Position numbers and translations under genes: made by a program. The notes beneath the pieces are model-generated. The model was not told the DNA's origin. It saw only the letters and a program-made list of their open reading frames with translations, and did not search any database. From positions 1 to 59,118 of the forward strand of contig BAYV01000028.1 in assembly GCA_000710935.1 (NCBI GenBank): a stretch of DNA of 59,118 nucleotides, written 5' to 3'. Shown piece after piece: positions 27,176-47,988 of this stretch. The first letter of the stretch is position 1; every line of letters begins with the position of its first letter. This DNA comes from Iodidimonas nitroreducens (GTDB taxonomy: Bacteria; Pseudomonadota; Alphaproteobacteria; Sphingomonadales; Rhodothalassiaceae).

Positions 27176-27225
27176 AGGACCGAGCGTGGGAAAGAGTGGA
27201 TCCCGGGTCTGCGCCCGGGATGACG
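27139..27225. repeat. Double-hairpin palindromic repeat, unit A
   Basis: An 87-base element bounded by CGTCA and TGACG. It holds two strong stems: CCCCGGC...GCCGGGG on the left and ATCCCGGG...CCCGGGAT on the right, joined by a spacer containing GTGAAGGACCGAGCGTGGG. The left part codes the C-terminal end of the KAP protein. Three more copies occur in this window (27253, 27476, 46372). This type of GC-rich mobile palindrome is common between genes in many proteobacteria. Confidence 0.85.
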
Positions 27226-27252
27226 AAAGTTGTGAGCACTTCATATAAATTT

Positions 27253-27338
27253 CGTCACCCCGGCACCCGAGCCGGGGTCCATCTCGTGAAGGACCGAGCG
27301 TGGGAAAGATGGATCCCGGGTCTCCGCCCGGGATGACG
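27253..27338. repeat. Double-hairpin palindromic repeat, unit B
   Basis: An 86-base copy with the same CGTCA/TGACG ends and the same two stems as unit A, differing by a few bases. The sequence just to its right (GGGGCGGGAATGACGATATT and beyond) is repeated almost exactly to the right of unit C, so B and C belong to a longer direct duplication of roughly 110-120 bases. The intervening 27376-27475 shows no gene. Confidence 0.85.
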
Positions 27339-27475
27339 AAAGGGGCGGGAATGACGATATTTGTGGCGCGGGATGACGCGGTTGAGAAGAAGAAGCCAGC
27401 GCGACTGAGCGCCGGCGCCGTTGCGCCGCCCCATCGGAGCCGTGAGCGCAGCGAACTGGCGCGAGATCAAAAAAC

Positions 27476-27560
27476 ATCACCCCGACCCCCGAGCCGGGGT
27501 CCATCCCGTGAAGGGCCGAGCGTGGGAAAGATGGATCCCGGGTCTCCGCCCGGGATGACG
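27476..27560. repeat. Double-hairpin palindromic repeat, unit C
   Basis: An 85-base copy with a slightly degenerate left end (ATCACCCCG in place of CGTCACCCCG). Together with its right flank to about 27588 it repeats the region around unit B. The whole 27176-27613 gap is therefore filled with repeats and has no gene. The strong stems could stop transcription arriving from both the KAP gene and the leftward genes. Confidence 0.83.
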
Positions 27561-44580: not shown

Positions 44581-45003
44581 ATGTCCACCATCAGCCCGCA
44601 AACTGCCCTCGTCTATGCCATGGTGCTGGTCTCGGCCTCTGATCGTCAGATGACCGATAGCGAATTGCGCCGGATCGGGGATCTGGTGCGCGCCCTGCCC
44701 GCCTTTGATGGCTATGATGAAAACAGCCTGGTGGATGATGCCAAAAGCTGTGCTGAAATCCTTGATGATGATGAAGGGCTCGATGCCGTTTTCGGCTTGA
44801 TCGCCGAAGCCATTCCGGCCAGCCACAGCGATCTGATCTATGCCCTTGGCTGTGAGATTGCCGCTGCCGATGGTGCCCTGACCCAGGAAGAACTGCGTTT
44901 GCTGGAAATGCTCCGGCATCGCTTTGCGGTGGATCGGCTGACCGCCGCTGCCATCGAACGGGGCGTGGCTGCCCGGCGCAAAAGCTTTGAGATCAAGGGC
45001 TGA
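44581..45003 (+). CDS. TerB-fold protein
   Basis: A 140-residue helical protein. ALVYAMVLVSASDRQMTDSE and DLIYALGCEIAAADGALTQE form the two internal TerB-like repeats, with Asp/Glu placements typical of the tellurite-resistance TerB fold. Many such proteins are unrelated to tellurite. An AAAAGGAAAC ribosome binding site precedes ATG 44581. The 148 bases between the helicase and this gene hold no other gene. Confidence 0.85.
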   Translation: MSTISPQTALVYAMVLVSASDRQMTDSELRRIGDLVRALPAFDGYDENSLVDDAKSCAEILDDDEGLDAVFGLIAEAIPASHSDLIYALGCEIAAADGALTQEELRLLEMLRHRFAVDRLTAAAIERGVAARRKSFEIKG

Positions 45004-45070
45004 ATTTCTTCTGAACAATCTCCTAATCCCCGGCGTTTATGATCGGTGTGGGATAACAGGAGGCAAAGAT

Positions 45071-45289
45071 ATGATCCATAAATTCGCGATGACAGCCATT
45101 CTACTGGCATCAGCCGCTCTGTTGGCGGGCTGCGATGCCGTGCCCGGCACAGATGCCTGGTGTGAAAAACTGACCAATACAGCAAAATCCGACTGGTCTG
45201 CCGAAGATGCCAAAATCTATGCCGAAGAATGCGTGGTGAAACCGGCCAAGGATGCCGTGGATGATACCATCGACGATGTGACCAACTAA
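45071..45289 (+). CDS. DUF3012 family lipoprotein
   Basis: A 72-residue small lipoprotein. Signal sequence with lipobox LLAGC, then DAVPGTDAWCEKLTNTAKSD and DAKIYAEECV, matching DUF3012, whose two conserved cysteines may pair. AGGAGG lies just before ATG 45071. Function unknown. It ends 20 bases before a hairpin that separates it from the convergent ADH-PAS gene. Confidence 0.82.
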   Translation: MIHKFAMTAILLASAALLAGCDAVPGTDAWCEKLTNTAKSDWSAEDAKIYAEECVVKPAKDAVDDTIDDVTN

Positions 45290-45309
45290 TCCAATATGAA
45301 CTCTGATGC

Positions 45310-45333
45310 GGCCCGGCTTTTATAATCCGGGCC
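45310..45333. terminator. Hairpin between convergent genes
   Basis: GGCCCGG and CCGGGCC form a perfect seven-pair stem around a ten-base A/T-rich loop. It lies between the stops of the DUF3012 gene and the ADH-PAS gene. No long T-run is present on either side, so termination strength is uncertain. Confidence 0.5.
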
Positions 45334-45335
45334 CT

Positions 45336-46244
45336 TCATAATCCGCGCGTGGTGAAAAGCGGGGCCTCGAAATCATATAGGCTTAGCACATAAGGGGTTT
45401 CATCAGGCGCGGGCATCAGGGGAAAATCAAGGGATGCGATGGCAATCTTGCGGTCATTCACCAAGTTCAGTTCGCCTTTCGAAATGGCAATGGATGGAAT
45501 AAGGGTGATTTTTGCCAGATGCTGTCTTTGGGCTTCGCTATCCACATCGATCAGATCTCGCAGCCGGGTGCCTTTGGTGAAATCGAGATGACGATCATTG
45601 ACCACGCTTTTGAACAGGGCTTTCACATCTTCGCCCACGATATGCGCCACCATATCGCTGCCATCTTCAAGCACATGGCATAAAGTAAGCCGGGCGTGCC
45701 AACCGACCAGATCCTGAAAACGCAGATCCTTGCGGGTGGGCCGGGGATTTTGGCTCAAAAGCCGGTTCCACCATTCAATATAGGGATTGAGTGGCCCCAG
45801 ATCGGGAATGGGGGCAAGATTGGCCATAGCATCAGGCACCAGCAGATAATCAGCCTGCGCCCCATCCTGCGTATTGCCAATCCGCCAGCCACCCAACGCT
45901 TTCCAGCCATGGGCCGTACCCGCGCCGCATTGGGAATGAAATCCGTAAAGCGAGGCATTGGAATGGCCCGATGGCATGATCGCCCCGGCAATCACCCTTT
46001 GGCCTTCCTCATAGCCCTTCACCATCGATCCCAATTTTTCGATCACCCCCACCGGCTCATGGCCGATGGTGAGGCCCGGCTCCACGGGATATTCCCCCTT
46101 CATGATATGAATATCCGTGCCGCAAATGGTGGTGGTGGTGATCCGGATCAGGGCATCGAGGGGGCCAATTTCGGGGATCGGCTTTTCATCGAGCACGATC
46201 CGTCCGGGTTCGACGAAAATGGCGGCTCTCATTTTGGCGGGCAT
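45336..46244 (-). CDS. Chimeric protein: N-terminal zinc alcohol dehydrogenase half fused to PAS_5 domain
   Basis: About 302 residues. Residues 5-148 are the GroES-like catalytic half of a medium-chain zinc ADH: TTTICGTDIHIMKGEYPVEP (Cys41), TIGHEPVGVIEKLG (His62-Glu63), and the Thermoanaerobacter-like isopropanol-dehydrogenase run GGWRIGNTQDG. Just where the Rossmann NAD domain should begin (around residue 149-153) it switches to a PAS_5-type domain, with NPYIEWWNRLLSQN, RPTRKDLRFQDLVG, MVAHIVGEDV and SLDFPLMPAPDE. The NAD domain is missing, so dehydrogenase activity is unlikely. It could be a deletion fusion of two genes, a real chimera or a misassembly. GGAAAGGACG precedes ATG 46244. Confidence 0.8.
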   Translation of the reverse strand: MPAKMRAAIFVEPGRIVLDEKPIPEIGPLDALIRITTTTICGTDIHIMKGEYPVEPGLTIGHEPVGVIEKLGSMVKGYEEGQRVIAGAIMPSGHSNASLYGFHSQCGAGTAHGWKALGGWRIGNTQDGAQADYLLVPDAMANLAPIPDLGPLNPYIEWWNRLLSQNPRPTRKDLRFQDLVGWHARLTLCHVLEDGSDMVAHIVGEDVKALFKSVVNDRHLDFTKGTRLRDLIDVDSEAQRQHLAKITLIPSIAISKGELNLVNDRKIAIASLDFPLMPAPDETPYVLSLYDFEAPLFTTRGL

Positions 46245-46282
46245 GGTGCGTCCTTTCCTCATCGGTCCTATGGCATCATTAC

Positions 46283-46327
46283 GCTATACTCTTGTGAAAT
46301 GCGCTCTCATGCCTTGACCAAGATCAA
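46283..46327 (-). promoter_or_regulatory. FNR/FixK-type box and promoter of the ADH-PAS gene
   Basis: TTGACCAAGATCAA (46314-46327, plus strand) differs from the FNR/FixK consensus TTGATNNNNATCAA at one position. Read leftward, a -10-like TATAGC (46283-46288) lies at the spacing of a class II activator site, about 42-45 bases from the box centre to the expected start. This suggests low-oxygen activation of the ADH-PAS gene. Confidence 0.6.
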
Positions 46328-46371
46328 ATCCGCGATGAATGATTCCGCCTGTCGTCATTCTGGATTCTTTT

Positions 46372-46457
46372 CGTCATTCCGCACCCCGAGCCGGATCCAT
46401 CTCGTGAAGGGCTGAGGATGGGAAAGAGTGGACCCCGGGTCTCCGCCCGGGGTGACG
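46372..46457. repeat. Double-hairpin palindromic repeat, unit D
   Basis: A fourth copy, 86 bases, of the repeat found at 27.1-27.6 kb, more diverged on the left (CGTCATTCCGCACCCCGAGC) but keeping the GTGAAGGGC spacer, the right stem GACCCCGGG/CCCGGGG and TGACG. A run of eight Gs follows (46463-46470). It lies between the ADH-PAS gene and the ALDH gene on the same strand and may separate their transcripts. Confidence 0.78.
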
Positions 46458-46506
46458 AAAGAGGGGGGGGCCGGGATGACGATTAAAGATCAGGCCCCTA
46501 AACGCT

Positions 46507-47970
46507 TCATAAGCGCGTGCAGATATTGCGGATTTCCGAATAGAAATGAAGCGATGCGGCCCCGCCCTCGCGCCCGATGCCCGAAGCTTTCATCCCCCCA
46601 AAGGGCGTGCGCAGATCGCGGATCATCCAGCTATTCACCCACAAAGCCCCCACCCGGCGCCGGGATGCCACATGATGGGCGCGGCTCATATCCTTTGTCC
46701 AGATCGTACCCGCAAGGCCATAGGGGCTATCATTGGCCAGCGCGATGGCTTCATCGGCATCATCAAAAGGCATGATATGGGTGACCGGGCCGAAGACTTC
46801 TTCCTGCACGGGCACGCTTTTTTGCGCAAGACCGGTCCAGACCGTGGGCTCCACCCATGCCCCCCCATCAAAGGGGGCGGGCATATCCGGGATCACCCCG
46901 CCGGCATGGACCTCGGCCCCGGCATCGCGCGCCGCCTTGAAATAGCCCAGCACCTTGTCGCGATGGCCATGGCTGCTCAAGGGCCCTAAGCGGGTGGCTT
47001 TATCCATGGGATCACCCGGGGCGAAGCTTTTGGCGGCTTTGGTCATCGCCTCCACCGTGCGATCATAAATCGCCCGCTCCACATAAAGCCGTTCATTGCC
47101 CAGACAAATCTGCCCACAATTGAAAAAGGCGGCCATGGCTTCAGTGCGGATAGCGGCTTCAAAATCGCAATCGGCAAAGAGGATTCCGGCGTTCTTCCCC
47201 CCCAATTCAAGGGAAATATCCCGGATACCCACGGCGGCCGCCTTCATGATCGCTTCGCCGGTGCGGGTTTCGCCGGTGAAGGTGATGGCATCCACATCGG
47301 GATGGGCGGTGAGAAAGGCCCCCGCCGATCCCGGCCCAAAGCCATGCACCACATTATAAACCCCTTTGGGGATGCCTGCCGCCTTCATCACCTCACCCAA
47401 AAGGGCAGCGGTGGCAGGCGTTTCTTCCGAGGGCTTCACCACCACCGCATTGCCGCAGATCAGCGCCGGGGCGACTTTCCAGGTCATCAGGATGAAGGGC
47501 AAATTCCACGGACAAATCGCCGCCACCACCCCTTTCGGGGTGCGCTCGGCCACATTCATCGCCCGCCCGCCATCGGGGAGGCGGGTTTCAAAGCTTTCCA
47601 AAGGGGTCATCCGCCCCACTTCGGCAAAGGTTCGGAATTGTTCGGCAGCGCGGGGGATTTCCCCCATTTTCGTGGGCATCAGGGGCTTGCCGGTATCGGC
47701 CATTTCGGCGGCAACGAAATCATCGAGCCGGGCGATGACCCCATCTGCGACCTTATGCAAAAGGGCGGCCCTGTCTTCAACCGTACTATCGCCCCAGGGC
47801 CCGTTCATGGCGGCCCGCGCTGCGGCCACGGCATCGGCAACATCGGCTTCACCGGCTTCGCTGACGATCGCCACCTTTTCCCCGGTGGCGGGGTTGATAT
47901 CATCGAAATGGCGGGCGCTATCGCGATAATCGCCATCGATAAAATTCAAAATCCTGCGCAGATCGCTCAT
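46507..47970 (-). CDS. Aldehyde dehydrogenase (2-hydroxymuconic semialdehyde dehydrogenase-like)
   Basis: A 487-residue NAD(P)-dependent ALDH. The catalytic Cys is in FFNCGQICLGNERLYVE and the general-base Glu in ISLELGGKNA. The sequence GQICLGNERLYVE is like that of 2-hydroxymuconic semialdehyde dehydrogenases of aromatic meta-cleavage, but substrate is not proven. GAGGAG precedes ATG 47970. It is the last gene of the TonB-TRAP operon, 18 bases after the TRAP permease, so it may oxidise an aldehyde formed from the imported substrate. Confidence 0.9.
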   Translation of the reverse strand: MSDLRRILNFIDGDYRDSARHFDDINPATGEKVAIVSEAGEADVADAVAAARAAMNGPWGDSTVEDRAALLHKVADGVIARLDDFVAAEMADTGKPLMPTKMGEIPRAAEQFRTFAEVGRMTPLESFETRLPDGGRAMNVAERTPKGVVAAICPWNLPFILMTWKVAPALICGNAVVVKPSEETPATAALLGEVMKAAGIPKGVYNVVHGFGPGSAGAFLTAHPDVDAITFTGETRTGEAIMKAAAVGIRDISLELGGKNAGILFADCDFEAAIRTEAMAAFFNCGQICLGNERLYVERAIYDRTVEAMTKAAKSFAPGDPMDKATRLGPLSSHGHRDKVLGYFKAARDAGAEVHAGGVIPDMPAPFDGGAWVEPTVWTGLAQKSVPVQEEVFGPVTHIMPFDDADEAIALANDSPYGLAGTIWTKDMSRAHHVASRRRVGALWVNSWMIRDLRTPFGGMKASGIGREGGAASLHFYSEIRNICTRL

Positions 47971-47988
47971 CGGATATCTCCTCAAAAA

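Follow-up and report, generated by a model that had tools for sequence, protein, structure and literature searches.

A lineage-specific in-frame fusion of a truncated zinc alcohol dehydrogenase with a PAS_5-like protein in Iodidimonas nitroreducens, probably formed by local deletion

The DNA analysed here, called the window, is a stretch of 59,118 nucleotides from Iodidimonas nitroreducens (contig BAYV01000028.1). Its minus strand carries, at 45336-46244, an uninterrupted frame of 302 residues, in which the first half of a zinc alcohol dehydrogenase (the front half) is followed by a sequence resembling PAS_5 domains (the C-half). Six other genomes of the family were compared with it, two of them congeneric (G001 and G002). 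The following features make up the locus:

44987-45289, plus strand: small gene, presumably lipoprotein-like, downstream flank; its orthologue adjoins the C-half gene in G001 and G002
45336-46244, minus strand: fusion gene, 302 aa; open frame with an ATG start and the ribosome-binding-like stretch AGGAAAGG directly upstream
45336-45806, minus strand: PAS_5-like part, residues 147-302 plus stop; orthologues in G001, G002, G006 and G057, and a PAS_5 profile match
45798-45809, minus strand: junction, codons 146-149, I-P-D-L; located by codon comparison with 26 in-register dehydrogenases and four C-half orthologues
45801-46244, minus strand: dehydrogenase-derived part, residues 1-148, the GroES-like half of a zinc secondary-alcohol dehydrogenase; recognised by Pfam ADH_N and orthologues
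46429-46452, minus strand: one copy of a palindrome-like element that occurs dispersed in the genome, within the 262 bases separating the fusion start (46244) from the aldehyde dehydrogenase gene
46507-47985, minus strand: gene taken to be an aldehyde dehydrogenase, upstream flank; G001 has an 85% identical orthologue that flanks the C-half gene on the corresponding side

The names aldehyde dehydrogenase and lipoprotein-like are provisional readings of the sequence, as are those of the flanking helicase, TerB-like and transporter genes mentioned below. The lipoprotein-like gene contains a C-D-A-V-P-G motif, which is also present in G001.

The first-pass annotation had described the frame as an in-frame chimera, and this description held: the frame is single and open, and its two parents have separate orthologues in other genomes. 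An alternative in-frame ATG lies upstream at 46262 and would lead to a product of 308 aa. Another ATG, at residue 140 (45825-45827, minus strand), seven codons ahead of Pro147, might start translation of the PAS-like part alone; the sequence inspected upstream of it contains no clear ribosome-binding stretch. When the region 45250-46600 was scanned for sigma-70-like promoters, none was found on the minus strand upstream of the fusion; the scan returned two sites, both on the plus strand, against 1.3 expected, and these counts are near chance. At third codon positions, G+C amounts to 0.67 in the dehydrogenase part against 0.57 in the C-half; three other window genes have 0.66, 0.69 and 0.70.

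The origin of the front half is evident from its relatives. The match to ADH_N (PF08240) covers residues 28-148 (E 1.3e-20) and is stretched by the orthologues to residues 1-148. In the order-wide search (396 genomes drawn, own genome included; matches listed down to E 4.1e-13) a dehydrogenase 70-86% identical to the fusion front was present, among the matches listed, in at least 24 genomes. The match to these 24 dehydrogenases (L064-L087) ends at residue 148 in 23 cases and at residue 149 in one, and their full length, read from the position aligned to residue 1, is 358 aa in 23 cases and 352 in one. Past residue 148 Pfam gave no match at E 1, thus the Rossmann NAD(P)-binding domain is absent from the fusion. 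Residues 4-147 also matched PDB 5yln (E 2.4e-22), and the full-length relative P0002 matched NADP-dependent isopropanol dehydrogenases over residues 5-353 of its 358 (best E 2.1e-68).

The zinc residues of TpADH are Cys37, His59, Glu60 and Asp150 according to the available part of PMC11194214; the zinc ligands are not given in the available part of PMC5123277. The window keeps Cys41, His62 and Glu63. The zinc Asp (Asp150 in TpADH, Asp160 in P0002) is missing; in P0002 it lies 12 residues past residue 148. The earlier claim of a zinc alcohol dehydrogenase half complete with its ligands was thus borne out for the ADH_N match and for Cys, His and Glu, and failed for the Asp. The C-terminal sequence of the dehydrogenase completes the catalytic fold. 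Lacking the Rossmann fold and having an incomplete zinc site, the fusion should, judged from sequence, be dead as a dehydrogenase.

Conservation of the front half was assessed on 69 columns invariant in 26 dehydrogenases, from which the two most distant dehydrogenase rows (L025 and L087) had been left out before counting. The window breaks one of these columns (position 126, Ile to Gln), and the 26 relatives, when tested alike, break 0 to 4. A single broken column fits a recent truncation and equally a half still in use, so that either the truncation would be recent or the dehydrogenase half would still be constrained. The mean pN/pS of the window is 0.21, the relatives ranging from 0.14 to 0.29, and its tip branch in the dehydrogenase-half tree (0.145) is the sixth longest of 29. 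The tree places the window among sequences from family f6, Roseobacter and others, the two adjoining splits being weakly supported (29 and 79). In G099 a piece of this dehydrogenase, 62% identical (contig C30, 177654-177842; residues 21-83), contains an internal TAG, a hint that this dehydrogenase may be decaying elsewhere too; a 79% identical copy is found on a different contig of that genome.

Free-standing orthologues of the C-half are about 180 aa long (179 aa in G001), and at least five of the 396 genomes have, among the matches listed, such a C-half without the front. Identity is 56% in G001, 48% in G002, 45% in G006, 42% in G057 and 36% in G092, the E values of the first four being, in turn, 3.8e-53, 1.4e-43, 2.5e-39 and 1.8e-32; on these scores the resemblance is beyond chance. 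The match begins at residue 144 in G001 and G002, at 134 in G006, at 146 in G057 and at 155 in G092. A profile built from the window and four orthologues matched 12 of the 396 genomes at E 1e-6: its own five source genomes, as is to be expected, at E 1.1e-66 or below, followed by G092 (E 2.2e-32) and six weaker ones. In another family, G078 has three matches to this profile lying near one another (contig C37, 13209-18061; L104, L108 and L110), one of them with an internal TGA, possibly a local expansion. Among 385 genomes drawn class-wide the window itself was the only match to the C-half; G001, G002, G006 and G057 gave no row and seem to be absent from that draw. Viral contigs yielded no relative.

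The first-pass annotation had labelled this half PAS_5 and had proposed searching the two parts separately against PF08240 and PF07310. The former was matched by the front, as described above; the C-half alone had no Pfam match even at E 10, PF07310 included, and when PF07310 was searched at E 10 in seven genomes of the family, the place in the window and the G001, G002 and G006 orthologues were all unlisted. What remains of the label comes from weaker signals. PAS_5 was matched weakly by two of the five members of the orthologue set (best E 0.046), below the Pfam cut-off, and hhalign aligned the C-half with PAS_5 sequences (11 of 15 PF07310 loci from the same bacterial family) at 77.7% probability (E 1.9e-5, 128 columns), which is moderate and not decisive. 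Residues 155-209 also weakly match another place in the own genome (E 0.034), which itself reaches 21.4 of the 22 bits of the PAS_5 cut-off. PAS_5-like is the safer name for the C-half. An NCBIfam thioesterase match (residues 213-272, E 0.026) was weak and was taken as chance.

AlphaFold2 modelled the front with confidence, with block means of 75-95 up to residue 90, 39-49 at residues 91-120 and 72-89 at 121-150; its model of the C-half, for which the alignment included no relatives, is unreliable, with values of 55-61 at residues 151-170 and mostly below 50 thereafter. The C-half breaks five of 29 columns invariant in four relatives, and these relatives, when tested alike, break 3 of 27, 11 of 35, 10 of 34 and 12 of 36. 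As the count for the window falls within the spread of its relatives, the C-half is, by this measure, not decaying and keeps its PAS-like core.

The point at which one parent gives way to the other could be located by codon comparison, from which L025 and L087, shifted by indels, were left out. Ile146 is found in 15 of the 26 dehydrogenases and in one of the four C-half orthologues, Pro147 in all 26 and in three of four, and Asp148 in 23 of 26 and in three of four. Leu149 occurs in none of the dehydrogenases and in all four C-half orthologues, and from this residue on the PAS-like parent is followed. These counts place the crossover at I-P-D-L, with P-D common to both parents. The dehydrogenases typically read A-P-I-P-D-G-L here, and the free-standing C-half genes read G-A-L-P-D-L-G (G001) and G-E-I-P-D-L-G (G002). 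Over the nine bases coding for I-P-D the window agrees with dehydrogenase L072 in full and with G002 at seven of nine, which suggests DNA microhomology at the junction; the shared motif is short, and it is at the protein level that it appears clearly. In G001, G006 and G057 an in-frame ATG lies 16 residues ahead of the position of Pro147. The matches listed for microhomology in the open-licence literature concerned yeast and plant mitochondria only.

The order-wide search returned two separate populations, dehydrogenases and C-half proteins. Among the matches listed from the 396 genomes both halves occurred in one row in the window only, save for four dehydrogenase rows of low identity. These rows, which run past residue 152 (G095, 16-185; G081, 16-248; G048, 16-245; G286, 3-270), were considered as members of a conserved family of this architecture and rejected: they look ordinary, with frames of 346-383 aa, and the C-half profile at E 1e-6 found nothing in G081, G095 and G286 and lay on a different contig in G048. 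In genome contigs, where the records nearest to the window genome may be missing, the matches of all 23 relatives are confined to residues 1-174 and so to the dehydrogenase half, and none of the 23 has the fusion architecture. The open-licence literature contained no paper joining gene fusion, alcohol dehydrogenase, PAS domain and GroES-like. The first-pass annotation had named no known family with this architecture, and no other genome searched had it. To judge from this distribution, the fusion looks like a one-off in a single lineage, real but accidental, and not like a conserved sensor family.

A distribution of this kind bears on the idea, raised already in the first-pass annotation next to that of a deletion joining two genes, that the protein is a sensor built from a substrate-binding dehydrogenase half. 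Worked out further, it would be a regulator in which the GroES-like half with its Cys, His and Glu would bind zinc, an alcohol or a partner and pass a signal on to the PAS-like domain, perhaps one for metal or alcohol. Both halves are open and well conserved, a ribosome-binding-like stretch stands ahead of the start and the junction falls between domains, all of which would suit such a protein. However, the fusion occurs in one genome only among those searched, the zinc Asp is absent, the catalytic fold has lost the C-terminal sequence needed to complete it, and Pfam recognised no linker or effector domain, ADH_N being its sole match in the fusion protein. No positive evidence came to light for the sensor, whose binding site is incomplete, and we regard it as very improbable; the deletion gained support, as set out below.

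Comparison of the surroundings showed that both congeners have a C-half gene at the same chromosomal place. In G001 the order on one side is helicase, TerB-like gene, small lipoprotein gene and C-half gene, and on the other side lie the aldehyde dehydrogenase and transporter genes; the outer flanks are as in the window, and two genes, which we take to be a phosphatase-like gene and a P-type ATPase, stand between the aldehyde dehydrogenase and the C-half gene. This pair is absent at the place in the window, and the best relative of the G001 P-type ATPase in the window's own genome is on another contig and 56% identical. In G002 the C-half gene is beside the lipoprotein, TerB-like and helicase genes, and no aldehyde dehydrogenase was found in the 16 kb inspected there. 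According to the first-pass annotation, two separate full genes in close relatives would point to an assembly join or a recent deletion and not to a conserved protein. One part of this was found, a C-half gene without the front in both congeners; the dehydrogenase half was unmatched in both at E 0.001, and the best dehydrogenase matches in the remaining four family genomes have identities of 25-43%.

These data also bear on a local misassembly, in which the assembler would have skipped the DNA separating two complete genes, one for the dehydrogenase and one for the PAS-like protein. The assembly is a draft of 108 contigs, which leaves room for such an error, but it is 98.7% complete, the join is exactly in frame and the outer flanks are neighbours in G001 too. 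Moreover, when the full length of P0002 was compared with the own genome, identity was 77% at this place and 30-36% at other dehydrogenases, with no leftover C-half; since no remnant of the missing dehydrogenase part was detected, a false join is improbable. The 111-base sequence spanning the junction occurs once in the assembly, the best other match being 29 bases at 90%. A false join of distant regions is made unlikely by the synteny and a repeat-driven join by the uniqueness of the junction. Taken together, there is little to recommend misassembly, and the fusion is very probably real.

With up to 3 mismatches allowed, the palindrome-like element CCCCGGGCGGAGACCCGGGGTCCA was matched 17 times in the own genome and not at all in the six relatives, two of them congeneric. 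Four copies are in the window, the one at 46429-46452 and three clustered at 27197-27555 (27.2-27.6 kb). As a cause of the join this genome-specific repeat was rejected, for it is located away from the junction.

A real fusion could also have arisen without a full dehydrogenase gene ever having been at this place, if a partial gene with its start had been horizontally transferred and had joined the PAS-like gene by illegitimate recombination. A close dehydrogenase orthologue is missing from all six of the other family genomes, as noted above, the closest dehydrogenases among the matches listed (86%) belong to a different family of the order, and a genome-specific repeat lies just upstream of the fusion. 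Against this, the dehydrogenase part has a G+C content at third positions (0.67) akin to that of three other window genes and below that of five of the six donor-family relatives compared (0.78-0.88; the sixth has 0.67), and the synonymous difference from the relatives is high (mean pS 0.68). Both values suggest a gene that had long been resident and complete when it was truncated; the dehydrogenase probably persisted undamaged in this lineage for a long time, and insertion of a partial gene appears unlikely.

The explanation that we consider probable is a lineage-specific in-frame fusion, brought about by a local deletion, as a result of which the PAS-like protein is translated from the dehydrogenase start and the front half is passive. 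A full dehydrogenase gene would formerly have stood just upstream of the resident PAS_5-like gene on the same strand, and the deletion would have taken about 210 last codons of the dehydrogenase, the intervening DNA and about 16 first codons of the PAS gene; this route is presumed, whereas the position of the junction is read directly from the codons. The short P-D-coding stretch in both genes perhaps helped the deletion. Translation would now begin at the dehydrogenase start or at the internal ATG at residue 140, the PAS-like domain would most likely keep its free-standing role, and the dehydrogenase half would probably be ballast. Fusion is supported by the separate occurrence of the parents in relatives and by the C-half orthologue being in place in both congeners. 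Against it, in no genome examined did the two complete genes lie next to each other, as the intermediate would have them. In G001, moreover, the presumed phosphatase-like and P-type ATPase genes separate the flanks, which makes the ancestral gene order assumed here tentative.

The locus offers a clean case in which a local rearrangement would have given rise to a new in-frame two-domain protein, and it cautions that a striking pairing of domains known from one instance may be a lineage-specific accident. Should the protein prove to be retained and functional, it would add a new instance in which half of an enzyme has come to serve as a sensor module.

With the secondary-alcohol (isopropanol) dehydrogenases (Thermoanaerobacter PDB 1bxz, 1ykf and 7ux4; 5yln) the fusion has the Cys, His and Glu zinc residues in common, but it is without the Rossmann fold, the zinc Asp and the C-terminal part that these enzymes have. 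In NCBIfam the front half is nearest to L-threonine 3-dehydrogenase, far under the model cut-off (66.8 of 380 bits). For the C-half, the matches listed from the open-licence literature included no usable paper on PAS_5, DUF1457 or PF07310. Single-domain PAS_5 proteins resemble it by a profile match along the domain, the sequence relation being remote. One of them is MopJ of Caulobacter crescentus, which according to the available part of PMC4432633 consists of a single domain and regulates motility and the cell cycle; it is 165 aa long, with PAS_5 (pfam07310) at residues 15-147. By this description MopJ is similar in size to the free-standing relative in G001 (165 and 179 aa), whereas the window copy, unlike the single-domain MopJ, has a dehydrogenase half in front.
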